In this document: positions 5,801 to 43,544 of the stretch, in pieces | How the letters are laid out: each line of letters begins with the position of its first letter | How positions within the stretch are numbered: the stretch's first letter is position 1 | Origin: Armatimonadota bacterium | GTDB taxonomy: Bacteria > Armatimonadota > Hebobacteria > CAIYQO01 | NCBI GenBank assembly: GCA_029553475.1 | Contig: JAKPKV010000113.1 | Coordinates: 1 to 64,000, forward strand | DNA length: 64,000 bases | Reading direction: 5' to 3' | Program-made: the position numbers and the translations under genes | The notes under the pieces: model-generated | What the model saw: only the letters and a program-made list of their open reading frames with translations | Database searches by the model: none | Told to the model about the DNA's origin: nothing

Positions 5801-5829
5801 CCACACCCCCGTCGCGCCCGCCCGCCTGC

Positions 5830-24238: not shown

Positions 24239-24314
24239 CCGGGGAGCGCCGGCATCAGGAGGCGCCGGCAACGCGATATGTTCAGATATGGATGGCAGAA
24301 TGAGGAGAACGGGT

Positions 24315-27300
24315 ATGGACCCGACACGCACAATCGAGCGATGGGGGATGGGGAGGGGAGCGGCGCGCCTGCTGCTCGTCCTCGCCCTGCTGCTGGCCGC
24401 GCCGGCCCTGGCGGGGCTGTCCACGACGTCGGACTGGCCGATGATGGGCGGCACCGCCGGGCACACCGGCGAAGCGAAGGGCGCGCTGCCGCCGGCGGGC
24501 ACGACGATGGGCATCGAGTGGTCGCGGCAGCTCGGCGCGCCGGTGACGGCCACCCCCGCCATCTCCGATACCACGAACGAGCTCATTGTCGGCACGGCGG
24601 ATGGCCGCGTCGTCTGGCTGGACGTCATCACCGGCGCGGTGCATCACAGCGTGCGGGTCGGCACGAACACCCCGTTCCTCAATACGCCGCTGGTAGACAG
24701 CGGAAACGACATGGTCTACGCCGGCAACGCCAATGGCCGGCTCTACGCGGTGCGGAGCGGCACGCCGGCGCCCGTCTGGGTGGCGCCGGCGGTGGGCACG
24801 GCCCCCTGGGGGCCGCTGGCCGCCGCGCCGATCTTCATCGGCGACGACATCCTCGTCGCCTCCATGGACGGGTGCATGTACAAAGTCACCGCCGCCACCG
24901 GCGCCTGGACGCGCATCTACGGCCCCATCGGCGCCGGCATCGAGGCGACGCCGACCCTCGGCGCGGCGAAAGCGGTGGGCGCCGCCAGCGCGCTGGCCGC
25001 GGATATGGCGACCATCGGCCTCACCAGCGTGCGGGTGGTGGATGCGAGTCTCTTCGATCCTGGCGACGAGTTGAAGATCGGCCCGAATCCCGCGGCGGCG
25101 CTGTCGGTGGGCTACATCACGCGCGTGGATACCGCGGCCAACACGCTGTATTTCAGCCTGCCGACCACCGCGACCTTCGTGGCGGGCGCCAACAGCGCCT
25201 ACGCCACGCCGCATCAGCCGCTCTACTTCGCCGCGACGAACGGCCGCCTGTACGCCATCAACGCGGATGAGGCCACGAGCCACCTGCGCTGGGTCTACCC
25301 CGATCCGCCGGGGAAGCTGCGGGCGCCGCAGGCCGCGCCGCTGCTGGACGGCGATGTGCTCTACGTCGGCGACCGCGGCGGCAGTTTTTACTGCGTGAAC
25401 GGCTACAGCGGGAAACTCGTCGGCATGCTCGCCGCGGCGGCGCTCGGCATCGGCGGCGACCTCGTCACCGCCGCCGGCAAGGCGGGGAACCATCAGGTGT
25501 TCGTCGGCGGGAGCGCCGGGCTGGCGGCCATTGACGTGACGAACCCGGCGGCCATGGTCATCCAGCGCCGCTATACCGTTTTTTCCACCGGCGTGGTCGC
25601 GCAGCCGGTGGTTGATGCCGCCGGCAAAGTCCTCGTCGGCACCGCCGGCGGCGCGGTCTACGCCCTGAACCAGGACGCCGACACCGAGATGTGGCACTGG
25701 ACGCCCGCGCGCGCGCTGACGCTCACCGGCTCTCCGCTGCTGCAGGTCAAGGGCGCGGACCGCCGCGTGTTCGCCGTCACCCGCGAGGGGCTGGCGCTCT
25801 CGCTGCTCACGGATGCCGCCGCCGCCCTGCCCGCGAGCCCAAAGCTGCCGAAGGGCCATTGGCCGCAGTTCCAGGGTGACGCCACCCATCCCGGCGCGCT
25901 CAACGCCGCGTCGCCCGGCTTCACCGCGCCCACCGACGGCATGGCCGGCGGCGAGTATACCGGCCGCAAGCTGCGCTGGGTGGCGCCCACCGGCGGCAAC
26001 GTGCGCGCCTCCGCCGCGGTGGCGCGCATCAGCGAGCGCGAGCGCACCGCCGCGCTGCACGGCGCCATCGCCGCCCCGCCCGCCGGCGCGCGCGCCGGCA
26101 CCACCATCACCGTGGACGACGCTTCCGCCTTCCACGTCGGCGATCCCGTCATCATCGGCGACGATTATCTCGGTCCCATCGCCGCCATCACCCGCACCCT
26201 CGCCGATCCGCTGGCGCCGGACACCCTCGTCGTCACCGACGGCCCGCGCCAGGGGCACGCCGCCGGCGCAGTGGTGCGCGTGAGCCACTACCGCACCGAC
26301 CGCGTGACGGGCGGCGATGCGCGGCAGTACGGCTCGCCGCAGGTGGGCGTCGCCAAAGATGCCGCCCAGGGCACGCTCTGGTATGACAACGCGCCGGTGT
26401 ATAATCCGCGCGGCCTCTCCTTCGCGCTGCGCGGCGTGCTCGTCCCCCGTTTCACCCGCGATGACGGCACGGCGCTGACCGCCTTCGCGGCGGCCGCCGG
26501 CGGCCAGGAAGTGCGCTTCGGGTTCTTCGAAAATGACACCGTCAACGTGATGAACCCGACCAGCGCCACCGAGCTGGATAACCCGACCTACCTGTACGTC
26601 TATCTCACGGATAACGGGCACATCGGCGTCCGTCGCAAGGTGACCGCCGGCGGCGACGCGCAGGCGCTGGATGCCGTGATCCCCGGCGCGGGGACGTATG
26701 CGCTGGCGAACGGCATCGAGGTGGTGCTGGCGCTGCGGCCCACCGGTACGAACGCCGCGCGGGCGACGGCGTATTACCGGCTGGCGGATGCCAACGGCAA
26801 ATTCCCCACTGACTTTTCCGGCTTCACGACCATCGGCTCGTATAACCTGCCCTCCGCCCTTCAGGTGGCTAATGCCACCCCGCCGCCGGCCTTCCTCTAC
26901 GAGGATCTGCTGCTGCCGGCGCCGCCGTCCGGACTGTACCCCTTCCTGCGCGGCTTCGACGGCGCCGGCGCGCGGCCCGGCTTTGACGTGACGGCGAAAG
27001 ACACGCGAGTACTCATCAGCTACGACCCGATCGCCGATACCGACGTCGTCGGCCCGGGCAGCAGCGTCATCCAGGTGGAGTTCCCCGAGCGCTTCCTACC
27101 CGGCGACCGGGTGGAGATCTTCCATCCATCGGACCCCGACCGGTACGAGACGTTCACGGTCGGCAGGGTGACCAGCACGTCTATCACGCTGGCGACGGGC
27201 CTGCAACACCGTTATCCGCCCGGCTCGCTGCTGCGCGCGGGGCGGCCCGGCGCGTGGGCGGCCTTCACCGGCTCCGATGATGGCTATCTGCGGGCCATTG

Positions 27301-30300
27301 ATCCGCAGACGGGCGCGGCGATCTGGAAGACGAACGCCAACGGCTACCTGGGGGCGGTGCGCGGCACGCCGGTGATTGATGACGCGCGCGCGCGCGTCTA
27401 CGCCGCCGGCGCCGGCGGGCGGCTGTTCGCCTTCGCGCAGAACGGGCAGTGGCTGTGGGCGTATCCCAGCGTGATGGCGCCGGCCCTCGGCCCCCTCGGC
27501 ACCGCGCCGGTGCTCGACGACGAGGGCAACATCTACTTCGGCACCGAAGGCGGTTATATCTATAAGGTGACGCCGGACGGCGAGCTGGCCACCAGCTCCG
27601 CCGACCCCGCGAAGACCACCAGCTACCCGGTGGCGCCCGACGCCGCGCTCTCGCCCATCGTCGGCGGGCTGGCGCTGTATCGCGCCGGCGCCGGCGCCGA
27701 TCCGGCGGGCCTGCGCGTCATCGTGCCCACCCGCGCCGGCAAGGTGTACCTCCTCGACGGCAATCTCGCGAAAAAGCTGATCTATCCCGATGACATGGCC
27801 GCTCCCAAACCGGCGGTCGGCGCGCTCAGCGCCGCGCCGGCCGTGGGCGCGGACGGCACCATCTACCTCGGCGATCTCACCGGCAGGGTGCACGCGTTCT
27901 ACGAAGACGCCGGGGGCGCGCTGAAGAGCCGCTGGCAGGTCTCCGCCGCCGATCCCACGCCGATCCTGTTCGCGACGGAAGGCCCGGTGGTCGCCGCCGC
28001 CGCGACGGCGGAGGGCGCGCTCTACCTGGCCGACGGCGCGGTGGATGCCGACCCGCTGCTCGGCAAGCGGCTCTACGCCGTGACCGGCAATTACGCCGCC
28101 GACCACGCCGCGGCGCTGAAGAGCAAGCAGCTTGACGGCGCGCCGGGCGGCGCGCTGACGCTGGACGCCGCCGGCAACCTGCTGGTGGCCACCGAGGCGG
28201 CCTCCGTTTACTGCTTCGCGCCGCTCGCCGGCGACGACGACCCGCTGTGGCGATGGAACGCGGTGACGACCGGCCTCCTGCCGAAGGCGCTGCCGCTGCG
28301 CACCGCGCCCGCGCCCTGGCTGGGCGCCCTGGTGATCGCCGGCGGGGATGACGGCAACATCTACGGCATCGGCCCGCGCGGGGAAGTCGCTCCGGCAGAC
28401 CCGGCGCTCAGCGTCGGCACGCCGGGCGGGCCCTGGCCGCTGGCGCATCGCGACCCGCGCCGCACCGGCGCGGACGCCGAGCGCCGCGCGTCCGAGCCGG
28501 GGCCGAAGGAGCCGAGCCTGCGCTGGTACGCGAATCCGGGCGGCCGCCTCTCCGCCGCGCCGGTGGTGACCGACCGCACGCCGGATCAATCCAGCCGCGT
28601 GGTGCAGGGCACGCCGGACGGCAAGGTGATCGTTTACGACGCCTCCACCGGCGAAGCCCGCTGGACCGCCGCGCTGGACGGCCAGGGGCCGGTGCGCGGC
28701 GCCGCCGCCGTGCATACGGACGGCAGCGTCGCCGTCGGCGCCCTCGACGGCCGCGCCTACCTCTTCGCGGCGGACGGCACGCCGCGCTGGAATACGCGGG
28801 CGGCGAACGGCACGCTCTACGGCGGCTTCCACGCCGCGCCCATCCGCGCCGCCAACGGCCGCGTGGCCATCGCGACCGCCGACCGGCTGGACGTCGCCGG
28901 CGCCTACGCCGCGCCCGCCGGCACCCCGAACGGCGCCGCCGCGCTGCGGGCCGCGCTGACCGACGTCGATCCCGTGACCGAGGTGACCGGCGGCGCCGGC
29001 CTGGAGATCACCTACGACCTGGGCCGCCTGGCCACCATCTCCCGCGTGCGCATCCGCACCGCCAACGGCGGCGAGCTCTCCTTCTTCCGCAATGGCGCCT
29101 GGTCGCTCTACGGCTCGTTCAGTGAGGAAGCCGCCCCGCGCTACATCACCGTGGACGCCAATCGCGCCGCCGGCATGGTGCGCTGGACGAACCGCTCCGC
29201 CGCCGGCGTCGCGGTGCAGGCCTTCGAGGTGTTCACCGCGGATGGGCCGCGGCTCACCGCCCTCGACACGCTGGTGGATGGCGCCGCCGGCGCCATCCCG
29301 TCGAACGGCGCCGTCACCGAGCTGCGGCCGAACGCCGTGCCGACGATCTTCGCGCAGCGCGTGACGTTCACCACGCGCGCGAAGGGCGAGCTGCGCGTCA
29401 TCGGCCCCGATGACGCCGAGGTGACGGTGGCGAAATACGCGCTGCAGGCGGCGCCGCAGACCTACGAGGTGCCGCTGAATCGCATGGTGAAGGCGGTGCG
29501 CTGGGTGCGCGACCCCGCCGATACCAACACCCTCGATCTCTTCGAGCTGTATGGCGCGGGCGGCGGGCGCGTCTACCTCTTCGACGATGCCACCGGCAAT
29601 CTGCTGCGGCAGTACCCCACCGTGGAGCCGGAGCTCGGACCGGTGACGGCGGCGATGGCCTCCGACGGCGACACCCTCTTTTTGGCCACCGCGAGCGGCG
29701 AGGCGCTGGCGCTGCGGCTCACCGACCTGTCGGAACTCTGGCGCACGCCGCTCACCGACCAGGCGCTGGCGCCGGTGACCATCGCCGAAACCGCCGGCGG
29801 CGACGCCGAGGTGCTTTTCGTCACCCATGACGGCGCCGTGCGCACGCTGGACACGCTGGGCAATCCCATCCACGCGGCAGCCTGGCGCATCCCCGGCGCG
29901 ACCTCCAACGCGCCGGCCATCACCACCGAGCTGTCCGGCGGCAAGCGCTGGGCGTACCTGATTAACGACCGCGGGCAGATTTACCGCATCAACCTGAACC
30001 TGGCGCCGGGCGCCGGCGGCACGGGCGCGGTGGCGCTGGGCGAGCTGCCCACCGGCGTGAATTCCTCGCCGGCCCTCGATTCCACCGGGCTGCTCTACGT
30101 CGGCTCGGAGATGGGCGCCCTCTACTGCCTGGATACCAATGATATTTACGTGCGGCGCTACGTGCTGGGGGTGCCGGAGTACGCCATCGGCATCCGCTGG
30201 ACCTATTTCCCGGATCGCTCGTCGCTCACCACCGCGCTATTTGAGGACGCCGCGCCGAATAGCCACGCGCTGCGCGTGAACTCCGTCGCCGGCTTCCGCA

Positions 30301-33300
30301 TCGGCGACGCGGTGCAGATCACCCGGCCGGACGGCAGCCTGCCGCAGAGCCTGGGCCGCATCACCGACATCAGTGAGCCGCGCAACCGCACCGCCTTCGC
30401 CGGCGTCAGCGGCAGGGCGAAAAACGCCGCCAACGCCGCCGTCCTCGACTTCACCGACGGCGCCACCGTGGCCGCCGTGTGGCCGGAAGGCGCGGCGGTG
30501 GGCGGCGTCTGCTACCGCGCCGGCGATCCGGAGGTGAAATACTACGTCACGGCGGTGAACAAGCCGGGGCGGACGATCACGCTCCTCACCCCGGTGGCGT
30601 CGGCCAGCACGGTAGAACCGAGAGAGTGGGTCTTCACCGCGACCCAGGCGCCGGACGCCTGGACGCTGCAGCTCCGCACGGTGGACCTGGACGGCGACAC
30701 CTTCTCCGAGATCGCCGTGGGCGACGACATCTCCGTGCTGCCCTGGTACGACGCGGCGCTCCATGCCGCGCCGTCGCTGCGCCGGCTGGGCACGGTCACG
30801 AAAGTGGACCTGACCACCCACACCCTCACGCTGGACAAGCCGATCTCCCTCCTCGGCGCCACCGCCGGGGCGACGAATGCCGCCTCCGGCACGGTCCTCG
30901 CCACCCGCCTCGTCGGCACGGCGACGAACGCCGCCGCCAGCGCGACGCTGAACTTCATCCCGCTGCCCGCCGGCGTGGCCGCCGGGCAGCAGTGCTACCT
31001 GGTGGATGATCCCACCACCGTCTACACCGTGGGGGCGGTGAATGCCGCGACGCACGTGGTGACGCTCACCGCGCCGGTGCCGGCCGCGCACCTCACCGCG
31101 CCGGGCATCTGGGCCTTTAATGCGCTGCCGCCGGGCGTGGCCGCCGGGCAGCCGTGCTACATCACCGAGGAGCCGGACACCGTCTACACAGTGGAGAGCG
31201 TCGGCCCCGGCGCCACCGTCACCCTGACCGCGCCGGTGCCGATGGCGCATCCGCTGCACGTGGAGTGGACCTTCGAGACGGCGGCGCGCGCCATCCCCGC
31301 CGGCTCGCAGGTCTTCGTCGGCTCCGTCTACGGCATCCTCTACGTGGCCACCCCCACCGCCGACTGGCGCACCGCCGGCGACATCGTGCGCGCCATCCGC
31401 GGCGCGGCGGCGCCTATGCGCACCGCCCCCGCCATCGGGCCGGGGCAGATCGCCTACCTCGGCGCGGATGACGGCCTGCTGTACGCCATCGGCCCCGTCG
31501 GCCCGGCGGGCTTCCCGCCGCAGCTCCCGGTGCTGCCGCCGCGCACCGACATCTCGCCGTGGTACTCCTTCCACCGCGACAATCAGCGCACCGGCTACGC
31601 CGACCGCCGGGGACCGCTCACCAGCGACCTGCGCTGGTACCACAACACCGGCAGCACGCTGGAGAGCTCGCCGGCGCTCGGCTATCCGGATGGTCTCGCC
31701 CGGCTGGGCGTGCTCTACGCCGGCACCGCCGACGAGCTGGATCACCGCGGCATCCCCCGGCAGCGCGGCTCGCTGCTCGCGCTGGATGCCTCCAGCGGCC
31801 GCCTGCGCTGGCGCTTCAACGATGGCGAGGCGATGGGCAAGATCATCTCCTCGCCCGCCGTCTTCGTCCTCGAGCGCGAGAAGCCGGACGGCGAGATCAT
31901 CAGGGACGAGCGCGTGGTGGTCGGCACGGTGGACGTGCCCGATTTCTTCTACTCCATCATGACCGACGCGCTGCGCCTCGATGACAAGGGTTTTGAGGAG
32001 TACGTCTCCGCCCGCCCGCCCGCGGGACAGCGCATCCTGGCGGGCGATACCATCGTCGGCCTCTACGTCACCCAGCCGGAACGCTTCCGGGCCGGGATGG
32101 AAGTCTACATCACCAATGCCGGCACCGGCTCGAATTTCGAGGTGTTCGGCACCATCGGCAGCATCACCGGCGGCCTGCTGCGCCTGAGCAAGGCGTATAC
32201 CGCGCTGCGCGTCCACGACCTGGCCTCCGAAGTGCACTCGCAGAAGGTCCAGGAAGGTCACGTCTACTGCGTGGACCGCACCGGCGAGCTGCGCTGGAAA
32301 TACCCGCGCGACGGCGCGCGGGCCTCCGAGCGCCTCGCGCCCGTGCGCTCCTCGCCGGTGGTGGACCCGGCCGGCACGACCTACTTCGGCACCGACGACG
32401 GCGTCGTCTACGCGCTGAATCTTGACGGCGAGCTGCTCTGGAAGTACGTGGTGCCGCGCGAGGGCGAGGATGAAGCGGAGATGGAGATCACCTCCTCGCC
32501 GACGCTGGACAAGATCGGCAGCCGCCTCTTCGTCGGCGTCAGCGCCCTCGGCGTCAACCGCGGCTACGTGATCGCCCTCGACGCCCTCACCGCCGATGAC
32601 GCGAATCGCCTGCTGTGGAAGCGCCACCTGTACGTGGACGTGAACGGCAACAACGCCTACGACGCCAACGAACCCGGCCCGGTGACCGCCAGCCCGACCA
32701 TCGGCACCATTGACGGCAAAGAGGTGCTCTACATCGGCACGGACGATTTCAACGCCGCCGACGGCCTGCAGGGCGCGCTCTTCTGCCTCGACCTGGCGAC
32801 GGGCGAGAACGCGACCACGCCCGCCGGGGCGGTCATCCCGCCGGCGGTCATCGGCCCGATCCGCAGCACCGCCGCCGTCATCCCGGAGACGAACACGACC
32901 GTCTACGGGGTGGTCGCGGTGGCGGGCGGCGGCAACACCATTGACGTGGCGGTGACCGCCGCCCAGCAGCTCCCCATCGCCACCCAGCGCGTGAAGATCC
33001 GCGGGGAGAACACCACGCTGGAGCGCGCGCTGGTGACGGTGGCCCAGCAGTCGGAAGACCCGGTGACGAAGACGCGCGTCTACCGCCTGACGCTCGACAC
33101 CCCGATCAACGGCGCCGAAGCCTATGAGTCGGTGCGCACGCACGAGCAGGCGGTCATCGTCGGCACCCTCGACGACCCGCTCACCGCCACGCAGGGCGAC
33201 GGCAAGCTCTACGCCTTCACCGAAGACCTGAAGGCGAACCTGTGGAGCTTCCCGACCGGCGGGCCTATCCGCACCTCGCCCGCCATCAGCACGGAAGTGG

Positions 33301-36300
33301 GGCTGGTGGGCGAGCGCGCGCGCAGCTATACCGCCTACGTGGGCGCGAATGATTTCTTCCTCTACGCGGTCACCTTCTACGGCACCTTCCGCGTCCTGCG
33401 CTGGGAGAAGAGCCTGCGCGACCGCGTCTACGCCTCGCCGGCGGTGGGCATGCGCACCGCCGAGCAGGAGTGGGCGCGCGCCATCGTCTACCAGCCCTCG
33501 CGCGACAAATATATGTACGCCTTCGGCGATCAGGTGGGGCTGCCGGAGGATGGCCAGCCGCAGGATCCGGACGGGCCTGACGACAACTACATCCCGCCCG
33601 AGGACGATGACCGCGACGAGGCGCGGGTGCCCTCCACGGTGATGGTGCAGAAGTCGGTGGAGTACAAAGACGGCGACACGAGCTGGTGGAAGTTCGTCGT
33701 CACCGTGCGCAACATCGGCCGCGGCAAGGTCGAGAACCTGAAAATTTACGATATCCTGCCCGCCGAACTGAGCTACCCGCTGGTGGACCAGCCGGGGCCG
33801 GATGGGGTGCTGGGCACCGCGGATGATATTCCCGGCGATCCGACCGCCATCCCGTATACCGGGCCGCTGAACCCGGATGAGAAGATGCACGCGCCGGTCA
33901 ATCTCGGCACGCCGGCGCAGCCGCAGTGGGAGATCATGTGGACGCGGGGCGACGATACCGGCTTCACACTGGATCCGGACAAGGGCGACCCGCACCAGAC
34001 GACCACCGAATATAAGCGCACCTTCGTCTTCTACAGCCGCGTGCGCCCGTCCGAGCGCACCTACGACTCGATGGGCGTGAAGATGAAGGTCACCACCGTG
34101 CCGACGGTGATGGCGAACGACACCGAAGTGGTCACCGACGCCCCGGCGAAGGTGCACATGGGCGATGCCGCCTACGTGCAGATCACCAAGCACCCGGTGC
34201 CGGCGGAGAGCGGCGGCAATATCGGGGTGAACCAGGTGCTCGCCCGCGGCATCACCTGGGCAGGCCTGGAGGAGCAGGAGATCGCCGTGCGCAAGGAAAC
34301 GCCGGTGGCCAACGACTGGACGGACACCTTCATCGTGCGCATGTACTACAACGGCTTCAAGGGTCCGGACCTGCGGCTGGCCGCCAGCGGCGCCGAGCTG
34401 CGCGCCTTCTCGCCGTGGAACTACGCGGATCACGAGTCCGGCGTGCCGCTCGCCTTCCAGTTGCCCTACACCTTCAAGACGAACGGCATGCCGGTGGGCG
34501 CGCGCCAGATGAAGACCTTCGTCTCGCCGCGCGCGGGCGACAACTACGCCACCTCCGGCGTGCGGCTGCCGCTCATCCCGAACGTGCCGCAGTATAATCA
34601 GACGCGCTTCCCCGGCGTGCCGCTCAGCCCGACGGTCATGCCCTACGCCTGGCGCCTCACCATCCAGCAGGGCCGCACCCAGCTCAATCAGAAGATCGGC
34701 GAGTGGGGGCCGGAGCTGCCCTTCATGGAGCGCATCGCAGTGGGCACGATCAGCGGCGAAGTGCCCGCTGGCGGGCTGTCGGTGCGGCTGAAGACGACGA
34801 ACCTGGCCAAGGGCCTGCGCGTGCAGGCGATGAAGCTGCGCCGGCTGCTGTTCGAGAATCCCACCGAGCCGGACGTGGAAGTCTACGTGGTGGATATCAC
34901 CGAGAATCCGCCGGTGGCGCCGGATGTCAAAGACCTGACGCTCACCTTCGCGCGGGCGCTGCCGGCGAAGATCGAGGACGGCGCCATCCTGCGCGACGAG
35001 TGGACCGCCGACCTGGCGGTGCTCAACCCGCTGGCGGTGAGCGGCCTGCAAGGCGATGAGATGAACCTCGGCGCCGAGATGCGCCCCGGCGGCACCGCGT
35101 CCGCGGCGACGCTCACGGTGACGAACGCCTCGCGCTGGGACGTGCCGAATCCCTATTCGGCGCGCTACCGCATCCGCGTGATGCCTATTGACCTGCGGCT
35201 GCCCGGCAACGCTTTCCGCTGGAACGACGCGCTGGAGGACCCGGCGGTCAATGCCGGATATGCCTTCGGCGCGCCGCCGCGGGCCGGCGCCGTCTGGGAC
35301 GGCTTCCGCTACGACCCGTACAAAGAGTACCACGTGACGATGACCGGCGCCATGCTCGACCTGCCGGACGGCTCCGCGCTGCGCGCCGGCGAGTCGCTGC
35401 GCATGCACGTCACGCGCCGCCTGCCCCCGCATCAGCCGAACGGCGGGTACGGCACATTCTCGGAGCACAAGCTCACGCTGCTCAATGACGGCGCGCGCGT
35501 CTTCCTCGATACGAACCTCGACGGCGTCTATCAGGCCGGGGAAGATCTGCTCCTCGAGGACCTGAACGCCAACACGCTGTGGGATGACGGCGAGCGCCTC
35601 TTCGTGGACGTTGACGGCAACGGCCTGCCGGGCCACGACGAGCCGGTCTTCGCCCTCGGCGCGTTCGACGTGCGCATCTTCATGGATATGAACGGCAACG
35701 GCGTCTGCGATCCGGGCGAGCCGTTCTACGCCTCCGCGGCGGCGACGGACGCCTACACCACCGCGGACGCGCTGCCGGCCAACCCGCTGCGCACCACCGT
35801 GGGGGTGGCGATTCAGCCCGCGCTGCGCGTGCCCAGCACCATGCTCGATCTCGGCCGCCAGCCCGCCGGCGCGCTCTACGGCCTGCCGCTGCGCCTGCCC
35901 GTCATCGAGAACCCGGGCAACGCGCCGTTGACGAACGTGCAGTTGAGCACGGGCAATACGCTGGCGACCAGCGACAACTACGCCACGCCGCTGCTGAATA
36001 TGCTGCTGCGCGCGGGCGGCGCCGGCGTGAAGCCCGACCTGACCTTCACCCCGCCCGACACCGTGACGGTGGGGAAGGTGAGCCTGCGCAAGGTCGAGGA
36101 GATGCAGCCGCTCATCCTCTCGCACAGTATGCCCGCGGACTGGACGGTGCTGAAGAGCCCGGCGGACGACCGCCGCAATTTTGGCCGGCCCTTCGAGCTG
36201 CCGCTGAAGACCGGCTACCGCCAGCCCACCGGCACGTATATGGGCGAGGCGACGATCACCGCCGCCGGCGGCAGCGCCGGCCTGGCCGTCAGCGTGCGGG

Positions 36301-38924
36301 TGAATGAGCAGCGGACGTCGCAGGTGGTGCCGGGGTTCAGCGCGCCGCCGCCGTTCGATATCCGCTCCGCCGTGCCCTTCGTGCCGGCGGCATACGGCTG
36401 GACGAACTACCTGACCGGCGTCGAGCGCTGGCCGACCGCTGCCGTGCTGCCGAAGGTGACGCCGACCGACCGCGATGACCTGGGCATCTGGGTGGCCAGC
36501 AATACGCCGGTGGGGAACACGCCGGTGATGCCCGCGCAAGACACCGATACCACGCTCTGGTTCCGGCGCGCGAAGCATCTCATCACCGACCTGGCCGGCG
36601 TGGATCTCGCGAACAGCCGCATCGCCATCCCGGTGGCGGACTGGAACAAGGTGCGCCGGCGGAGCGATGCCACCGGCGACCTGGTCATCCTGCGCAAGAA
36701 ACCCACGGTGGATGACCCGAACCCCAACATCGTCTGGTTCGGCCAGGCGGTGGTGCCGGCGATCGGCCCGGCGGTGCCCGGCGTCATTGACGTGCAGCCG
36801 GCGCTGGCCTGGGGCATCCCGAACGAGCAAACGGTGGTGGAGATCCTCGCCCATCCGTGGGTGCCCGTCTTCACCCCGGCGGAGATGGAGGGCATGCGCG
36901 CGCTGCTTGATGATCCCGGCAATCCGGGCTTCAAGCCGCTGATTGAGTGCACCACGCCGTCGGTGACGATGGCCTGGTACGACGCGGCCACCCGCCGCAT
37001 GGTGCTGCGCGAGGACGCGCAGGCCAATCCGTGGCTCATCTGGTCGGTCTCCGCGCTGCGGCGGGTCACCCGCAACGGGCAGCCCAGTTTCCTGCCGGGT
37101 TCCTACCTTGCCTACAAGCAGTTCGACCCGGAGAACCCGACGGGCGGGAAGTACTACTGGATCACGCCGCCGGACATGGCGCTCCTCGGCGGGTCGCTGC
37201 CGAAAGTGACCGTGCGCGAGAAGCCCACGCTGCTGCCGGTCTCCTGGATGAAGGCCGGGACGCCGCCCATCAACGGGATGGCGCTGTACGAGGGAAGCGC
37301 GCCGTCCGAAGCGCGGAAACTCTACTACGCCTTCGCCGGCGCGCAGGCGGAGGAAGTGGTGACCACCGTGGGCGCGGCGTCGGCGGGCGTGGCCCTGGAA
37401 GTGGCCAGCACCGCCGACCTGACCGCGGGCATGGTGATCCGCATTGACAATCCGGCGCCGCAGCCGGACAGCTACGCGCGCATCGCGGCGATTGTGGATG
37501 CCACGCACGTGACGCTGCAGCAGGCCGCGACCGCCGCCGCCGGCGCCCCCGTGCTGGTGACGAATATCCTGGCCGTGGCCGGCGCGGTGAATCCGGCGGG
37601 GACGACAATCCCCGTTGATGCGACCACGGCGCTGTATCCGGGGCAGACGATCGTCGTGGATAACCCGAACAGCGCGGATGCCATCGTCACCGTCACCGGC
37701 GTGCAGGCCGGTACGATCACCGTGGATACGCCGGTGCGCGTGGAAGCGAACGCGTATCTCCGCGCCTACTGGACGACGGACGTGCCGCTCGTCGCGCTCA
37801 ATCACGCGTTCGACGCCGCCGGCGCGGTGAAGGTTTTCGCCGACTCGGTTGGCGGCGCGGCCGAGGCGACGCCGGCGCATCTGAACCTGATTTTCCAGGG
37901 GACGGCCGGCGGCAACACCGACTTGTACTACGCGCGGGTGAGGGTGGATCAGCGGCCGGCCGCCGATCCGCGCGGATCGCGCCCGCTGGTCTTGCAGCCG
38001 CTCATCCTAGCTGACGCTAACCCGGCGACCGGCGTGGTGACGGAAGCGCTGACGCCGAACAGCGCGACGACGCCGACCTTCTTCACCGGCGGCCGCTACC
38101 GCGCCTGGTGGCTGCGCGTGGATGCCGACCCGCGCCAGCTTAAGCTGACGGTGCTCACGAAGGGCGGCGCCACCGACACGGTGACGATGGACGCCTGGGT
38201 GGATAAGCCGGCGGCGTGGCCCGCGGACGGCGAACTGGCGGATGTCTTCGGCGCGCTGGATCCCCTCCGCGAGTACACGTTGGAATATAGCCTCAACGGC
38301 CGCCGCTACCGGCTCGGCTTCAACCCCTACGTCGGCACGGTGCGCGTCCTTCGCCAGCCGGCGGCGGACGCGACGATCATCAGCGTCAGCATCACCGGCG
38401 TGCCGCGCGTGCAGCGCCTCACCGGCCACTACGCGCCGGACGTGCTGCCCATCGTCTCGGTGGAGCGCTGGCGGAGCCTGTATGAGAATCCGCCAGGTAC
38501 ATGGATACCCGATTATGGTCCGGGCGGCTCGCTGGCCGCCGCCCCGCGCGTGTGGCTCTACTGGACGCGCCAGCACGATGACGCGCTGGGACCGCGGGTC
38601 TACTACCGCACCTGGCGCATGGTGAACGCGGGCACCGCCGCCACCCCGAACATCGTGCGGCTGGATACCGAGGCGCGCAGCGAGACGAACCCGCAGAACA
38701 TGGACATGCCGGAGCGCATGCTGCCCATGGAAGTGCTCGCGCCGGACGGCACCGCCACCGTGGTGCGCCAGTCCGCCGGGATCAACTCGCCGGAAGCCGG
38801 GCTGTGGGTGCTCACCACCGCCTCCCGCGACCTCTGGCCGCTCTACCCGAACACCGGCGAGAAGGACGTGACCCGCCACGATCTGTTCCTGCAGGTCATC
38901 AACGTCCCGGCGCCGGATCGGTGA
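24315..38924 (+). CDS. Giant multi-propeller exported protein 2 (about 4,869 aa), PilY1-like candidate
   Basis: ATG at 24315 is chosen because GAGGAG lies 8 bp upstream. A signal peptide follows (AARLLLVLALLLAAPALAG). Four PQQ-type opening motifs mark four tandem beta-propeller units: DWPMMGGTAGHTG (about residue 40), HWPQFQGDATHPG (515), PWPLAHRDPRRTG (1373) and PWYSFHRDNQRTG (2415), each with repeated blades like IYFGTEGGYIYKV. Discoidin-like sequence lies near 1540-1650, a DUF11-like region from about 3106, and EF-hand-like loops (DVDGNG, DMNGNGVCDPGE) near 3732-3806. At least eight GD-type modules and a threefold Cys-Tyr repeat interrupt the blades. There is no membrane anchor at the C-terminus (VINVPAPDR). 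The length is far beyond PilY1 (about 1,000-1,200 aa). Function is inferred from cluster position and architecture. Confidence 0.85.
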   Translation: MDPTRTIERWGMGRGAARLLLVLALLLAAPALAGLSTTSDWPMMGGTAGHTGEAKGALPPAGTTMGIEWSRQLGAPVTATPAISDTTNELIVGTADGRVVWLDVITGAVHHSVRVGTNTPFLNTPLVDSGNDMVYAGNANGRLYAVRSGTPAPVWVAPAVGTAPWGPLAAAPIFIGDDILVASMDGCMYKVTAATGAWTRIYGPIGAGIEATPTLGAAKAVGAASALAADMATIGLTSVRVVDASLFDPGDELKIGPNPAAALSVGYITRVDTAANTLYFSLPTTATFVAGANSAYATPHQPLYFAATNGRLYAINADEATSHLRWVYPDPPGKLRAPQAAPLLDGDVLYVGDRGGSFYCVNGYSGKLVGMLAAAALGIGGDLVTAAGKAGNHQVFVGGSAGLAAIDVTNPAAMVIQRRYTVFSTGVVAQPVVDAAGKVLVGTAGGAVYALNQDADTEMWHWTPARALTLTGSPLLQVKGADRRVFAVTREGLALSLLTDAAAALPASPKLPKGHWPQFQGDATHPGALNAASPGFTAPTDGMAGGEYTGRKLRWVAPTGGNVRASAAVARISERERTAALHGAIAAPPAGARAGTTITVDDASAFHVGDPVIIGDDYLGPIAAITRTLADPLAPDTLVVTDGPRQGHAAGAVVRVSHYRTDRVTGGDARQYGSPQVGVAKDAAQGTLWYDNAPVYNPRGLSFALRGVLVPRFTRDDGTALTAFAAAAGGQEVRFGFFENDTVNVMNPTSATELDNPTYLYVYLTDNGHIGVRRKVTAGGDAQALDAVIPGAGTYALANGIEVVLALRPTGTNAARATAYYRLADANGKFPTDFSGFTTIGSYNLPSALQVANATPPPAFLYEDLLLPAPPSGLYPFLRGFDGAGARPGFDVTAKDTRVLISYDPIADTDVVGPGSSVIQVEFPERFLPGDRVEIFHPSDPDRYETFTVGRVTSTSITLATGLQHRYPPGSLLRAGRPGAWAAFTGSDDGYLRAIDPQTGAAIWKTNANGYLGAVRGTPVIDDARARVYAAGAGGRLFAFAQNGQWLWAYPSVMAPALGPLGTAPVLDDEGNIYFGTEGGYIYKVTPDGELATSSADPAKTTSYPVAPDAALSPIVGGLALYRAGAGADPAGLRVIVPTRAGKVYLLDGNLAKKLIYPDDMAAPKPAVGALSAAPAVGADGTIYLGDLTGRVHAFYEDAGGALKSRWQVSAADPTPILFATEGPVVAAAATAEGALYLADGAVDADPLLGKRLYAVTGNYAADHAAALKSKQLDGAPGGALTLDAAGNLLVATEAASVYCFAPLAGDDDPLWRWNAVTTGLLPKALPLRTAPAPWLGALVIAGGDDGNIYGIGPRGEVAPADPALSVGTPGGPWPLAHRDPRRTGADAERRASEPGPKEPSLRWYANPGGRLSAAPVVTDRTPDQSSRVVQGTPDGKVIVYDASTGEARWTAALDGQGPVRGAAAVHTDGSVAVGALDGRAYLFAADGTPRWNTRAANGTLYGGFHAAPIRAANGRVAIATADRLDVAGAYAAPAGTPNGAAALRAALTDVDPVTEVTGGAGLEITYDLGRLATISRVRIRTANGGELSFFRNGAWSLYGSFSEEAAPRYITVDANRAAGMVRWTNRSAAGVAVQAFEVFTADGPRLTALDTLVDGAAGAIPSNGAVTELRPNAVPTIFAQRVTFTTRAKGELRVIGPDDAEVTVAKYALQAAPQTYEVPLNRMVKAVRWVRDPADTNTLDLFELYGAGGGRVYLFDDATGNLLRQYPTVEPELGPVTAAMASDGDTLFLATASGEALALRLTDLSELWRTPLTDQALAPVTIAETAGGDAEVLFVTHDGAVRTLDTLGNPIHAAAWRIPGATSNAPAITTELSGGKRWAYLINDRGQIYRINLNLAPGAGGTGAVALGELPTGVNSSPALDSTGLLYVGSEMGALYCLDTNDIYVRRYVLGVPEYAIGIRWTYFPDRSSLTTALFEDAAPNSHALRVNSVAGFRIGDAVQITRPDGSLPQSLGRITDISEPRNRTAFAGVSGRAKNAANAAVLDFTDGATVAAVWPEGAAVGGVCYRAGDPEVKYYVTAVNKPGRTITLLTPVASASTVEPREWVFTATQAPDAWTLQLRTVDLDGDTFSEIAVGDDISVLPWYDAALHAAPSLRRLGTVTKVDLTTHTLTLDKPISLLGATAGATNAASGTVLATRLVGTATNAAASATLNFIPLPAGVAAGQQCYLVDDPTTVYTVGAVNAATHVVTLTAPVPAAHLTAPGIWAFNALPPGVAAGQPCYITEEPDTVYTVESVGPGATVTLTAPVPMAHPLHVEWTFETAARAIPAGSQVFVGSVYGILYVATPTADWRTAGDIVRAIRGAAAPMRTAPAIGPGQIAYLGADDGLLYAIGPVGPAGFPPQLPVLPPRTDISPWYSFHRDNQRTGYADRRGPLTSDLRWYHNTGSTLESSPALGYPDGLARLGVLYAGTADELDHRGIPRQRGSLLALDASSGRLRWRFNDGEAMGKIISSPAVFVLEREKPDGEIIRDERVVVGTVDVPDFFYSIMTDALRLDDKGFEEYVSARPPAGQRILAGDTIVGLYVTQPERFRAGMEVYITNAGTGSNFEVFGTIGSITGGLLRLSKAYTALRVHDLASEVHSQKVQEGHVYCVDRTGELRWKYPRDGARASERLAPVRSSPVVDPAGTTYFGTDDGVVYALNLDGELLWKYVVPREGEDEAEMEITSSPTLDKIGSRLFVGVSALGVNRGYVIALDALTADDANRLLWKRHLYVDVNGNNAYDANEPGPVTASPTIGTIDGKEVLYIGTDDFNAADGLQGALFCLDLATGENATTPAGAVIPPAVIGPIRSTAAVIPETNTTVYGVVAVAGGGNTIDVAVTAAQQLPIATQRVKIRGENTTLERALVTVAQQSEDPVTKTRVYRLTLDTPINGAEAYESVRTHEQAVIVGTLDDPLTATQGDGKLYAFTEDLKANLWSFPTGGPIRTSPAISTEVGLVGERARSYTAYVGANDFFLYAVTFYGTFRVLRWEKSLRDRVYASPAVGMRTAEQEWARAIVYQPSRDKYMYAFGDQVGLPEDGQPQDPDGPDDNYIPPEDDDRDEARVPSTVMVQKSVEYKDGDTSWWKFVVTVRNIGRGKVENLKIYDILPAELSYPLVDQPGPDGVLGTADDIPGDPTAIPYTGPLNPDEKMHAPVNLGTPAQPQWEIMWTRGDDTGFTLDPDKGDPHQTTTEYKRTFVFYSRVRPSERTYDSMGVKMKVTTVPTVMANDTEVVTDAPAKVHMGDAAYVQITKHPVPAESGGNIGVNQVLARGITWAGLEEQEIAVRKETPVANDWTDTFIVRMYYNGFKGPDLRLAASGAELRAFSPWNYADHESGVPLAFQLPYTFKTNGMPVGARQMKTFVSPRAGDNYATSGVRLPLIPNVPQYNQTRFPGVPLSPTVMPYAWRLTIQQGRTQLNQKIGEWGPELPFMERIAVGTISGEVPAGGLSVRLKTTNLAKGLRVQAMKLRRLLFENPTEPDVEVYVVDITENPPVAPDVKDLTLTFARALPAKIEDGAILRDEWTADLAVLNPLAVSGLQGDEMNLGAEMRPGGTASAATLTVTNASRWDVPNPYSARYRIRVMPIDLRLPGNAFRWNDALEDPAVNAGYAFGAPPRAGAVWDGFRYDPYKEYHVTMTGAMLDLPDGSALRAGESLRMHVTRRLPPHQPNGGYGTFSEHKLTLLNDGARVFLDTNLDGVYQAGEDLLLEDLNANTLWDDGERLFVDVDGNGLPGHDEPVFALGAFDVRIFMDMNGNGVCDPGEPFYASAAATDAYTTADALPANPLRTTVGVAIQPALRVPSTMLDLGRQPAGALYGLPLRLPVIENPGNAPLTNVQLSTGNTLATSDNYATPLLNMLLRAGGAGVKPDLTFTPPDTVTVGKVSLRKVEEMQPLILSHSMPADWTVLKSPADDRRNFGRPFELPLKTGYRQPTGTYMGEATITAAGGSAGLAVSVRVNEQRTSQVVPGFSAPPPFDIRSAVPFVPAAYGWTNYLTGVERWPTAAVLPKVTPTDRDDLGIWVASNTPVGNTPVMPAQDTDTTLWFRRAKHLITDLAGVDLANSRIAIPVADWNKVRRRSDATGDLVILRKKPTVDDPNPNIVWFGQAVVPAIGPAVPGVIDVQPALAWGIPNEQTVVEILAHPWVPVFTPAEMEGMRALLDDPGNPGFKPLIECTTPSVTMAWYDAATRRMVLREDAQANPWLIWSVSALRRVTRNGQPSFLPGSYLAYKQFDPENPTGGKYYWITPPDMALLGGSLPKVTVREKPTLLPVSWMKAGTPPINGMALYEGSAPSEARKLYYAFAGAQAEEVVTTVGAASAGVALEVASTADLTAGMVIRIDNPAPQPDSYARIAAIVDATHVTLQQAATAAAGAPVLVTNILAVAGAVNPAGTTIPVDATTALYPGQTIVVDNPNSADAIVTVTGVQAGTITVDTPVRVEANAYLRAYWTTDVPLVALNHAFDAAGAVKVFADSVGGAAEATPAHLNLIFQGTAGGNTDLYYARVRVDQRPAADPRGSRPLVLQPLILADANPATGVVTEALTPNSATTPTFFTGGRYRAWWLRVDADPRQLKLTVLTKGGATDTVTMDAWVDKPAAWPADGELADVFGALDPLREYTLEYSLNGRRYRLGFNPYVGTVRVLRQPAADATIISVSITGVPRVQRLTGHYAPDVLPIVSVERWRSLYENPPGTWIPDYGPGGSLAAAPRVWLYWTRQHDDALGPRVYYRTWRMVNAGTAATPNIVRLDTEARSETNPQNMDMPERMLPMEVLAPDGTATVVRQSAGINSPEAGLWVLTTASRDLWPLYPNTGEKDVTRHDLFLQVINVPAPDR

Positions 38925-38999: not shown

Positions 39000-39104
39000 A
39001 TCGTTCGTAGTCGCGCCGCAGCCTGAGCAAGGCGCGTCGAATTTCTACACCGGATTGCCTATTCGAACGCGCCTTGCTCAGGCTGCGGCGCGACTACGAA
39101 CGAT
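39000..39104. repeat. Near-perfect inverted repeat with 43/44-bp arms
   Basis: Bases 39000-39042 are the reverse complement of 39061-39104 apart from one single-base indel, with an 18-bp spacer. The arms include TCGTTCGTAGTCGCGCCGC. There is no coding potential inside. The near identity points to recent insertion or active maintenance, and the form suits a REP/hairpin element. The rest of the gap, 39105-39227, shows no gene. Confidence 0.88.
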
Positions 39105-39585: not shown

Positions 39586-39720
39586 TGCGTCACGCTAGGG
39601 TTCGCGTATCCTGCGTACTCGTCATCGTACTCGTATCCCCGCCAGGATACGCGGCTCGACGGAGTCTCGCCCTCCAGGGGATACGAGTACGATGACGATG
39701 ACGATGACGATGACGAGCTG
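39586..39720. repeat. Inverted-repeat element, copy 1, with (GATGAC)4 expansion
   Basis: GTCATCGTACTCGTATCCCC (39621-39640) pairs with its complement at 39677-39696. The right arm continues into four tandem GATGAC hexamers where the left arm has one. The left flank GCGTCACG..AGGGTTCGCGT (from 39586) is shared with the element at 45659. It ends 20-odd bp before the promoter-like site of the VIT gene. Bases 39426-39585 show nothing else. Confidence 0.75.
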
Positions 39721-39783: not shown

Positions 39784-42222
39784 ATGGAGCACGAGCAGAC
39801 TGACGCGCTGGAAGCCGCCCGCGCCGCGGGGGCGCTGCCCCCCGACCTCGAAGAGCTGCTGCACAGCAGCGGCCCGCCGGCGCCCCCGCCGATGTCGCGC
39901 TTCTGGCGGGGCTACCTGATCGCCTTCGGCGTGGTGCTGCCGGTGCTCACCCTCGCCGTCGAGCTCCTCTTACGCCTCTGCACCGGCGCCTTCTTCGACC
40001 CGCTGCCCACGCCGGTGCATATCGCCCTCTACGCCGGCATCGCCGTCTTTTGCCTGCTGCTGCTGCGGGCGGCGGGGGGCGGCGCGCGGCCGCCGCTGTG
40101 GGTGCTGGGCGGACTCTACGGCATGGCGCTCGTCACGACAGTGGTGTACACCGTGCAGTTCCTGCCCATTCTGCCCATTTCCCTCCTCGCGGTGCTGCTG
40201 CTGGGCATCGGCTTTTGCGGGCTCAGTCCGCTGCTGGCGCTCATCGGCATGGTGTATGCCCGCGCGTACCTGACGAGCATGGCGCGGCAGGAGGAGCATC
40301 CGCGCCTGCCCGGTCTGCGCCGGGGGCTGCTGGTGGCGGTGCTGCTGCTGGCGGTCGTCGAGCTGCCGGGCGCCTACACCCAACTGCTCATGCGCCAGGC
40401 GCAGGCGGACGCTCCGGCGGCCCGCGCCCAGGCGGTGCGGATGCTGCGGGCGGTGGGCAGCCGCGAGGTGCTGCTGCGCGCCTGCTACGTCCGCTCGGGC
40501 ACCAATGGCGCGTTCCTCACCGCGGCGCTGGCGGTGATCAGCCCGCTCGGCACGGACGAGGCGCGGGTGCTCTACTACCGGGTGACCGGCCAGCCGTTCA
40601 ACGCCGCGCCGCTGCCGCGGGAAATGGTGCGCCACCGCGCCGCCTGGGATGCTGAAGGTATGGCGTGGGATGACGCGGTGGGCGGCGCCGCCGTCGCCGG
40701 GCGGGTGCGCCACCTGAACCTGACCACCTCGCGCCTGGATGGCTCGGTAGACGCCGACGCCGGCCTCGCCTACCTGGAGTGGACGCAGGAGTTCCACAAT
40801 ACCTCCGGGATGGCGCGCGAGGCGCGGGCGCAGCTCGCGCTGCCGCCGGGCGCCGTCGTCTCGCGGGCGACGCTGTGGGTGAACGGCGAGGAGCGCGAGG
40901 CCGCCTTCGCCGCCCGCGGCCGCGCCCGCCAGGCGTATGAGGAGGTGGTGGTGGTACAGCGGCGCGATCCGCTGCTCGTCACCACCTGCGGGCCGGACCG
41001 CGTGCTCGTGCAGTGCTTCCCGGTTCCCGCGAATGGCCGCATGAAGATTCGCCTGGGCATCACCGCCCCGCTGCAGGGGGACGGCGCTTTAGTGCTGCCG
41101 GCGATCATCGAGCGCAACTACGGCCTGGGCCGCGACCTGCGCCAGCAGCTCTGGGTGGAAGGCGATGCGCCGATGACCACGGCCATCACGGGCGTGAAGG
41201 CGGAGCGCGCGGCGAGCGCCTACGCCGTGCGCGGGGCGATGGCGGTGGAGAGCGCGGCGTCCGTCATCCGCGTGCAGCAGCCCCCCGCGAAGCTGGCGTG
41301 GACGCCCGACCCCGCGCGGCCGGGAGCGGTGATCGTGCAGCGCCCGGCGCCCGCCCCCTGGAAGCCGGACCGCGTGGTCTTCGTGCTGGACGGCTCCGCC
41401 GGCATGCGCGCGGTGGAACAGCACCTGCCGCGGATCATGGACCATTTCCCGGCGGGCATCGAATACGCGGTGGTGGCGGCGACCGATGCCGGCAGCCTCC
41501 TCGCCAGGCCGCCGCGGCCACACGCGGCGCTGCACGTGTCGCTGGAGACCGGCATCCAGCGCTGTGAGGGCGGGGTGGATAACCTGCCGGCGCTGCTGCG
41601 CGGGCTGGAGCTGGCGGCGGAGGCGACGCGCGGGGCGGTGGTGTGGATTCACGGCGCGCAGCCGCTGGACGGCGATATGTCGGCGCTGACGCAGTGGTGG
41701 GAGCGCCGCCCGAATGGCCCGCGCCTCTACGCACTGCAGGTGGCGCCCGGCCCCAATCGCGTGCTGGAAGCCGGCGAGGGCGTCGCCGGCCTCGCCACCG
41801 TGGCGTATACCGGCGCTCTTGCGGAAGACCTGAACCGCGTCTATGCGGTCTGGCGAGGACAGCAGCCCACCTGGGTGCGCGAGCGCGTTCCCGGCAAGCG
41901 AGCCGGTCCGGGGGAGAAGACCTCGAATCACCTGGCGCGGCTGTGGGCGGCCGACCAGGTGCGCACGTTGCGCGCCACCGGCAAGCTGGCGGATATCGAG
42001 ATGGCCATCGCCATCGCCGCGCGCTACCACCTGGTCACCCCGGTCACCGGCGCGGTGGTGCTGGAGAACGCCCAGCAGTACAAGGACAATGGCCTGGAGC
42101 CGGTGCATGCCGGCTCGGTGCCCACCATCCCGGAGCCGGAGGCGTGGCTGCTGCTGCTCGTCGCGGCGCTGGTGCTGGGGTTTGCCTGGTGGCGAAAGAG
42201 GCGCGCGTGCCCCGCCGCCTGA
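39784..42222 (+). CDS. Membrane VIT/vWA-domain protein with PEP-CTERM sorting signal
   Basis: ATG 39784 follows AGGAGG. The 812-aa protein has a soluble N-terminus (1-35), about six membrane helices (to about residue 200), a VIT domain (about 302-450; EFHNTSGMAREARAQLALPP, RQAYEEV), and a vWA domain starting RVVFVLDGSAGM near residue 532 with a degenerate MIDAS. It ends in IPEPEAW (PEP at 783-785), a hydrophobic helix and WWRKRR, a textbook PEP-CTERM tripartite signal. VIT/vWA proteins are known protein-interaction modules, related to inter-alpha-trypsin inhibitor heavy chains. The next gene, overlapping by 16 bp, is an exosortase, so this is very likely its dedicated substrate. The layout resembles the XrtN- and MSEP-CTERM-type VIT systems. 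Confidence 0.92.
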   Translation: MEHEQTDALEAARAAGALPPDLEELLHSSGPPAPPPMSRFWRGYLIAFGVVLPVLTLAVELLLRLCTGAFFDPLPTPVHIALYAGIAVFCLLLLRAAGGGARPPLWVLGGLYGMALVTTVVYTVQFLPILPISLLAVLLLGIGFCGLSPLLALIGMVYARAYLTSMARQEEHPRLPGLRRGLLVAVLLLAVVELPGAYTQLLMRQAQADAPAARAQAVRMLRAVGSREVLLRACYVRSGTNGAFLTAALAVISPLGTDEARVLYYRVTGQPFNAAPLPREMVRHRAAWDAEGMAWDDAVGGAAVAGRVRHLNLTTSRLDGSVDADAGLAYLEWTQEFHNTSGMAREARAQLALPPGAVVSRATLWVNGEEREAAFAARGRARQAYEEVVVVQRRDPLLVTTCGPDRVLVQCFPVPANGRMKIRLGITAPLQGDGALVLPAIIERNYGLGRDLRQQLWVEGDAPMTTAITGVKAERAASAYAVRGAMAVESAASVIRVQQPPAKLAWTPDPARPGAVIVQRPAPAPWKPDRVVFVLDGSAGMRAVEQHLPRIMDHFPAGIEYAVVAATDAGSLLARPPRPHAALHVSLETGIQRCEGGVDNLPALLRGLELAAEATRGAVVWIHGAQPLDGDMSALTQWWERRPNGPRLYALQVAPGPNRVLEAGEGVAGLATVAYTGALAEDLNRVYAVWRGQQPTWVRERVPGKRAGPGEKTSNHLARLWAADQVRTLRATGKLADIEMAIAIAARYHLVTPVTGAVVLENAQQYKDNGLEPVHAGSVPTIPEPEAWLLLLVAALVLGFAWWRKRRACPAA

Positions 42223-43544
42223 CCCCGGCGCTGCTGCTGCTGGCCGCCGCCGCGCTCTGGCCGGTCTGGCTTTGGTATGCCCACCGGCTGCTGGCCGCCC
42301 CGGAAGAGCGCGCCGGCCTGCTCGCGCTGGGGGTCGCCGTCCTCTTCTGCTGGCGGACGCCGCCCGCGCCGCTGCCGCGTTGGCCGCTGCTGGTGCCGGC
42401 TGTGCTGCTGCTGGCGTATGCCGCCGCCGTGCCGGTCGCGCCGCCGCTGGTGCGGGCCGTCCTCGGCATCACCGCGCTGGTGGCGCTGGTCAGCGCGCTG
42501 CGCCTGGGCGCGCGCCTGCATGTCGGCCTCTGGGGGTTGGCGCTGCTGGCGTTGCCCGTGCTGCCCTCGCTGCAGTTTTACCTGGGCTATCCATTGCGGG
42601 CGGCGGTGGCGCAGGGGGCGGCGCCGCTGCTGCGCGGGGCGGGCTACTCGGTGCTGCCGGAGGGCGCCTGCCTGCGCTGGGGCGGGGCGCTCGTCGCGGT
42701 GGACGCGCCGTGCAGCGGCGTGCGCATGCTGTGGACCGGCCTCTTCCTCGCGCTGGCGCTGGCGGTCTGGCTGCGGCTCTCGCCCGGGCGCACCATTGCC
42801 GCGCTGGGCCTGGCGTTCGCCGCCGTGCTCGCCGGCAACGTGCTGCGCGCCGTCGCGCTGTTCTTTCCGGAGGCGGGGGCGCTGCCCCTGCCCGCCTGGG
42901 GGCACGCCGGCATCGGCACGGTCAGCTTCCTGCTCGTCGCCGCCGCCATCGCCGGGGGTGTGCTGTGGCTGCACGGGCGGCAACGCCCGCCCGCGTCCGG
43001 CACGCGGGTGGCGGAGGGGAGCGGTCTCCCGCGCCCGCGCGCCATCGCCCTGTTCCTGGCCGTATGTGTCGCTGCCGCCGTCATACCCTGTTGGACGCCG
43101 CCACGCGCGCCACGCGCGCTCACCGCCTTCCCGGGGTGGCCGGCGGCGCTGGAGGGCACTCCGCTGCGGGCGCTGCCGCTCAGCGCGCGGGAGGCGCGCT
43201 TCAGCCGCGACTTCCCCGGGCGGGTGGGCCGCTTCAGCGACGGCCGGCGGGAGTGGATCATCCGCTGGGTGACGACGCCCACGCGCACGCTGCACCCGGC
43301 CGCCGACTGCTTCCGCGGCAGCGGCTACCGCCTCACCCCGCTTGCGCTGCACGTGGACGCGGCGGGCCGCCGCTGGGGCGCCTGCCTCGCCGCGCGCGCG
43401 GGCGAGCGCCTGCGGGTGCGCGAATGCATCGTGGACGGCGACGGCCGGCACTGGAGCGACGTCTCCGCCTGGTACTGGGCGGCGCTGCTCGATCGCACCC
43501 GCGGCCCGTGGTGGGCGTACACCGTCGCCGAGCGCGCGCCATAG
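42207..43544 (+). CDS. Exosortase fused to an EpsI-like (DUF3485) domain
   Basis: GTG 42207 has AAAGAGG upstream and overlaps the end of the VIT gene. The 445-aa protein has eight or so membrane helices in its first 270 residues with the exosortase triad in order: Cys169 in APCSGVRM, Arg214 in GNVLRAVALFF and His233 in WGHAGIG. Exosortases cut and process PEP-CTERM tails at the inner membrane during surface sorting. From about residue 290 a soluble domain (ALEGTPLRALPLS ... IIRWVTTPTRTLHPAADCFRGSG) resembles EpsI, which in many genomes is a separate or fused exosortase partner. Its stop is directly next to the stop of the convergent heparinase gene. Confidence 0.92.
   Translation: MPRRLTPALLLLAAAALWPVWLWYAHRLLAAPEERAGLLALGVAVLFCWRTPPAPLPRWPLLVPAVLLLAYAAAVPVAPPLVRAVLGITALVALVSALRLGARLHVGLWGLALLALPVLPSLQFYLGYPLRAAVAQGAAPLLRGAGYSVLPEGACLRWGGALVAVDAPCSGVRMLWTGLFLALALAVWLRLSPGRTIAALGLAFAAVLAGNVLRAVALFFPEAGALPLPAWGHAGIGTVSFLLVAAAIAGGVLWLHGRQRPPASGTRVAEGSGLPRPRAIALFLAVCVAAAVIPCWTPPRAPRALTAFPGWPAALEGTPLRALPLSAREARFSRDFPGRVGRFSDGRREWIIRWVTTPTRTLHPAADCFRGSGYRLTPLALHVDAAGRRWGACLAARAGERLRVRECIVDGDGRHWSDVSAWYWAALLDRTRGPWWAYTVAERAP

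Follow-up and report, generated by a model that had tools for sequence, protein, structure and literature searches.

Does an exosortase whose gene overlaps that of a PEP-CTERM protein serve that protein alone, and does such a pair constitute an exosortase subtype of its own? The question is raised by two adjacent genes in a 64,000-nucleotide stretch of DNA from an Armatimonadota bacterium (GenBank assembly GCA_029553475.1, contig JAKPKV010000113.1, positions 1 to 64,000; hereafter the window), the first encoding a VIT/vWA protein with a PEP-CTERM sorting tail and the second an exosortase with an EpsI-like C-terminal domain. Our analysis leads to the conclusion that the pair is a real, conserved variant of known pairs and not a new category, and that it probably constitutes a two-gene dedicated sorting cassette of an XrtQ-like kind. 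The combination of an EpsI-fused exosortase with a private VIT/vWA partner already exists in named subtypes; what differs here is the type of partner.

The gene pair and its products

The components of the pair are located as follows.

39784..42222, forward strand: VIT/vWA protein gene, ATG at 39784, TGA stop at 42220-42222, 812 aa
Residues 39-205 of the VIT/vWA protein, forward strand: helices of the membrane-embedded N-terminus, from hydropathy and AlphaFold2
Residues ~311-430 of the same protein, forward strand: VIT domain (Pfam PF08487, E 1.9e-10)
Residues ~529-704 of the same protein, forward strand: vWA-like domain, from fold and profile match
42118..42219, forward strand: PEP-CTERM sorting tail VPTIPEPEAWLLLLVAALVLGFAWWRKRRACPAA, with the PEP motif at residues 783-785, a membrane helix at 785-808 and a basic cluster
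42207..43544, forward strand: exosortase gene, GTG at 42207, stop at 43542-43544, 445 aa
42711..42713, forward strand: codon of the putative catalytic Cys169 (DAPCSG), from an alignment of exosortases
42846..42848, forward strand: codon of Arg214 (GNVLRA), from the same alignment
42903..42905, forward strand: codon of His233 (WGHAG), from the same alignment
43104..43541 (residues ~300-445), forward strand: EpsI-like domain, from profile comparison with DUF3485/EpsI, motif HPAADCFRGSGY

The genes overlap by 16 nt, the stop codon of the VIT/vWA gene lying inside the start region of the exosortase gene, and AAAGAGG precedes the GTG of the latter. Another genome of the genus keeps the pair at 80-86% identity, and so it is not a chance reading. 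An earlier reading of this DNA (the original prediction) had described a PEP-CTERM protein overlapped by an exosortase with Cys169, Arg214 and His233, and its positions proved exact.

On the strength of the family models that it passes (PF09721, 88.3 bits against a cut-off of 25.7, E 6.8e-25; TIGR04178, 45.4 bits against a cut-off of 23) and of the Cys, Arg and His residues of its membrane-embedded core, which are invariant in 28/28 aligned exosortases, the enzyme can be assigned to the exosortase/archaeosortase family. Its AlphaFold2 model has a pLDDT of 89.9; a fold search found no relative in the PDB (best E 0.1), and a sequence-profile search was likewise empty.

The fused EpsI-like domain, also part of the original prediction, is without a match to PF11984 (EpsI) in the window exosortase at E<=1, but it emerges from a comparison of profiles. 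When the C-terminal domains of 23 systems were compared with true EpsI/DUF3485 domains from other genomes, the two aligned over 130 columns with P 2.6e-5 and a probability of 75%, while eight column-shuffled EpsI alignments, which served as the control, gave P 0.35-0.83 and probabilities of 0.0-0.2%. Both sets of domains have in common the motif H-x4-C-x4-G-[YW], at coinciding positions. These comparisons support a distant homology of the C-terminal domain to EpsI. EpsH proteins with a fused EpsI region have been known since 2006 (PMC1569441).

The tail of the VIT/vWA protein scores 17.1 bits with TIGR02595 (cut-off 16) and falls slightly short with PF07589 (20.0 vs a cut-off of 20.7). Pfam gives no vWA match in this protein, the vWA part being too diverged, and the domain is recognized from the AlphaFold2 model (mean pLDDT 87.8, built on 38 relatives), whose top Foldseek match in the PDB is the VIT-vWA unit of inter-alpha-trypsin inhibitor heavy chain 1 (ITIH1; E 4e-20), and from a profile match to ITIH4 (E 6e-9). 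According to this model, a VIT domain is followed by a vWA fold. Metal binding by the vWA-like domain is doubtful, because the motif reads DGSAG instead of DxSxS; most relatives likewise have another residue in place of the final Ser. With helices at the N-terminus and the PEP-CTERM helix at the other end, the protein is predicted to be membrane-anchored at either end.

Apparent dedication within the window genome

The window belongs to a metagenome-assembled genome (MAG) of 5.27 Mb in 194 contigs, with 99.5% completeness and 4% contamination. A search of this genome returned a single exosortase, and among 65 candidates scored for PEP-CTERM tails there was one match at E<=1, the tail of the VIT/vWA protein itself (E 8.5e-4). 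Because only one PEP-CTERM protein and one exosortase were found, the pair looks dedicated: one enzyme, apparently with one substrate, encoded by adjacent genes. The dedication foreseen by the original prediction thus agrees with the genome-wide count. Another VIT protein, encoded elsewhere in the genome, is without a PEP-CTERM tail. No separate EpsI (PF11984) was found across the genome at E<=0.001, which is consistent with the fused EpsI-like domain filling the EpsI role.

Relationship to named systems

Knowledge of the XrtQ, XrtT, XrtN and MSEP systems is drawn here from NCBIfam models and the genomes examined; among the papers searched, none dealt with XrtQ, XrtT, XrtN or MSEP-CTERM systems, or with an exosortase with a VIT domain. 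The best named model for the window exosortase is XrtQ (NF012182), at 164 bits, below the cut-off of 270. The same model is the best for all exosortases of the window group, which score 45-182 bits, none reaching 270. Enzymes that pass the cut-off (322-370 bits) are present in G633, G693, G694 and G838, the last of which surfaced in the search for XrtT. Like the window enzyme, these four are EpsI-fused and encoded directly 3' of a VIT/vWA gene with a PEP-CTERM-like tail, in genomes with few PEP-CTERM proteins (0-2). They differ in the partner: that of XrtQ resembles TIGR03788 ('marine sortase target'; 405-425 bits) and has a vWA domain detected by Pfam, whereas the window partner resembles TIGR04477/TIGR04286 and has a membrane-embedded N-terminus.

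In a tree of 28 exosortase cores, a single group (support 97/94) comprises the window clade, XrtQ and 14 further VIT-paired exosortases; two Armatimonadota relatives fall outside it. Placing XrtQ within the window group or as its sister gave p 0.185 and 0.375 in the approximately unbiased test. Both placements fit the tree. With a score below the XrtQ cut-off and a partner of another VIT type, the window enzyme may be described as an unnamed, XrtQ-like sister branch outside the named subtypes.

XrtT (NF033770) gives 84 bits on the window exosortase, short of its cut-off of 250. The sole XrtT found, in G952 (687 bits), is likewise EpsI-fused and adjoins a TIGR03788-like VIT/vWA protein, in a genome with 0 PEP-CTERM matches, but its gene order is reversed and the enzyme is remote from the window enzyme in the tree. 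At the XrtT locus L083 (6896-10668), the tail of the TIGR03788-like VIT/vWA neighbour, which lies in reverse order, shows no recognisable PEP motif.

For the window partner, the best models are those of the XrtN system (TIGR04477; 126 bits, cut-off 250) and of MSEP-CTERM (TIGR04286; 46 bits, cut-off 150). Both fall far short of their cut-offs and match most strongly over the VIT domain, and the N-terminal membrane region of the partner's relatives matches too. The enzymes differ, as judged by model scores, the window exosortase reaching 42 bits with XrtN (TIGR04476) vs a cut-off of 200. A publication of 2011 (PMC3237569) described VIT/vWA-family proteins whose tails are of the LPXTG, GlyGly-CTERM or PEP-CTERM type, dedicated sortase cassettes among them. 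The LPXTG and GlyGly-CTERM systems (TIGR03784 sortase; rhombosortase) resemble the window pair in that vault/vWA-family proteins end in a sorting tail and in some cases have a dedicated sorting enzyme encoded next to them (PMC3237569), but their enzymes and tail signals are unrelated to those of the pair. Classical EpsH-EpsI fusions share an exosortase with a C-terminal EpsI-homologous region (PMC1569441), whereas classical PEP-CTERM systems have many substrates and genes within exopolysaccharide clusters.

The original prediction had taken the pair for a separate subtype marked by its EpsI fusion. Its separateness stands in so far as the XrtQ cut-off is not reached and the VIT type of the partner differs. 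The fusion was rejected as a marker, since the same fusion beside a VIT/vWA gene occurs in XrtQ (four genomes) and XrtT (G952), and some lineages of the window group carry EpsI as a separate gene.

Spread of the pair and of unpaired VIT proteins

A scan based on the VIT alignment and covering 84,980 species genomes yielded 44 loci. Adjacent, co-directional exosortase/VIT pairs number 18, from 17 genomes of Armatimonadota (the window's own genus and two genomes titled Actinomycetota at NCBI), Desulfomonile, a deltaproteobacterial MAG placed in Myxococcota, Gammaproteobacteria (Woeseiaceae, Exilibacterium), Acidobacteriota, Planctomycetota (Pla86), Hydrogenedentes and Melainabacteria/Obscuribacterales. 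With the window-like exosortase group present in at least eight phyla, the pair is not special to a GC-rich lineage. The VIT partners of paired exosortases retain PEP tails, and plasmid records held no match to the window exosortase. Fusion of the EpsI-like part is seen in the window and in L018, L019, L026, L040, L055, L058 and L060, whereas a separate overlapping open reading frame (ORF) encodes this part in L021, L027, L028, L038, L049, L051 and L052, and likewise in G623 and G481. Whether the two are fused is accordingly a detail that varies.

Individual loci show further variation. G298 (Obscuribacterales) has two pairs, L040 and L078, and in the latter (5574-10297), where the VIT gene is accompanied by an exosortase-EpsI gene, the tail reads PEADTW in place of the usual PEPETW. 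In G210 (L012 1-8249, identical to L060), one exosortase follows three VIT/PEP-CTERM paralogues in tandem, of which the first has two in-frame stops. L058 and L060 are titled Actinomycetota at NCBI, and the genomes with the same contigs (G211 and G210) are placed in Armatimonadota. At L028, in G296, the sole exosortase is XrtQ-like and the genome has 28 PEP-CTERM matches, a case in which a member of the group may act on numerous substrates.

In contrast to the paired proteins, about 25 orphan VIT relatives, from Verrucomicrobiota, Kiritimatiellota and Lentisphaerota, have no adjacent exosortase; nearly all of them retain the PEP-CTERM tail. Orphan relatives of the window partner total about 30, Verrucomicrobiota supplying most of them. 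Their genomes contain other exosortases, with one exception. Across phyla, the median number of PEP-CTERM matches per genome is 21 for orphans vs 3 for pairs (Mann-Whitney p 0.006), a contrast that is confounded by phylum and hence was repeated inside Armatimonadota. There the counts are 1, 1, 4 and 6 in paired genomes vs 37, 26, 24, 13, 24, 16 and 12 in orphan ones (Mann-Whitney exact p 0.006, with kinship inside the Armatimonadota groups lowering the effective sample number). The contrast thus held inside a single phylum, the split within Armatimonadota being complete. Mapped onto the VIT tree, the paired and orphan states require about seven transitions; well-supported branches force at least two of these, which means that the arrangement has changed on more than one occasion. 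These data suggest, with about even chances of being right, that the named XrtQ is only one branch of a broad exosortase group, as yet uncatalogued, which evolves to process VIT/vWA proteins privately, and that genomes switch repeatedly between a VIT protein that is a client of the general PEP-CTERM system and, where that system is lacking, one served by an EpsI-equipped exosortase of its own.

Proposed mechanism and alternatives

By analogy with the exosortase family, the cassette most likely works as follows. The N-terminal helices would insert the VIT/vWA protein into the inner membrane, exposing its VIT and vWA-like domains to the periplasm, with the C-terminus anchored by the PEP-CTERM helix. 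The exosortase encoded next to it would recognise Pro-Glu-Pro, and Cys169, aided by Arg214 and His233, would attack a nearby bond, a step in which the EpsI-like domain, presumably periplasmic, may assist. The C-terminal helix would thereby be removed and the new end released or joined to another molecule. With the N-terminus still embedded in the membrane, only the C-terminus would be liberated or re-attached by processing, and no secretion would follow. In this picture the genes and their overlap, the residues, the domains, the conserved pairing and the genome counts are observed, whereas cleavage, the roles of the residues and of EpsI, and the topology are deduced from the family.

Several points weigh against a dedicated cassette. 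TIGR02595 misses weak tails, giving 0 matches in G293 and G299 despite their VIT tails, such that other substrates in the window genome could go unnoticed, and 0.5% of the MAG may be absent. Moreover, exclusivity is not universal in the XrtQ-like group, because G296 has 28 PEP-CTERM matches with one exosortase and G300 has 26 with four. If the exosortase also served unrecognised substrates with tails too divergent for TIGR02595, the VIT/vWA protein would merely be its nearest neighbour, and the true tails missed in G293 and G299, together with the single XrtQ-like enzyme among the many candidates of G296, speak for this. It is nevertheless unlikely in view of the single candidate at E<=1 among the 65 scored, the overlap of the genes and the recurrence of the pairing across phyla.

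The pair could also be a degenerate remnant, the last piece of a former full PEP-CTERM system whose enzyme is unneeded or inactive. The discoverers of the system treated genomes with one or two PEP-CTERM matches as possible remnants (PMC1569441), and VIT relatives elsewhere mostly live among many PEP-CTERM proteins. Such decay is, however, improbable, because two genomes of the genus, 14-20% apart at the protein level, both have intact catalytic residues, EpsI motif and PEP tail, and the enzyme lineage is distinct from general exosortases and paired in many phyla, which argues that it is not a leftover of a general system. Classical EpsH/EpsI genes sit in exopolysaccharide clusters (PMC1569441), which would allow the main job of the exosortase to lie elsewhere, for example, in polysaccharide export, with cleavage of the VIT/vWA protein incidental. 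We regard this as very improbable: the pair is flanked by a gene for a 4878-aa repeat protein and, on the opposite strand, a heparinase-like gene, not by an exopolysaccharide cluster, and it is the VIT gene that is the constant neighbour of the exosortase across phyla.

Surrounding sequence

The repeat protein directly upstream of the pair is encoded by one ORF at 24288-38924 and contains, as judged by eye, many PQQ-like beta-propeller repeats. Between this gene and the VIT/vWA gene lies a perfect 38-nt inverted repeat with a 29-nt loop (39000-39104), which is present in a single copy in the window. A 27-nt inverted repeat (93%) is found at 39614-39703, beside an ATGACG simple repeat and about 80 nt 5' of the VIT/vWA start codon.

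Implications

Most exosortase systems have dozens of substrates, which is partly why exosortase biochemistry is poorly known. A system of one enzyme, one membrane-anchored substrate and a fused EpsI-like domain would provide a simple test bed for exosortase action and for the role of EpsI. If the repeated switching between general and private processing is true, the VIT protein would be a client worth keeping. The contrast between paired and orphan genomes points to retention of the VIT/vWA protein where other PEP-CTERM proteins are absent, and thus to a possible valued role in the cell envelope.

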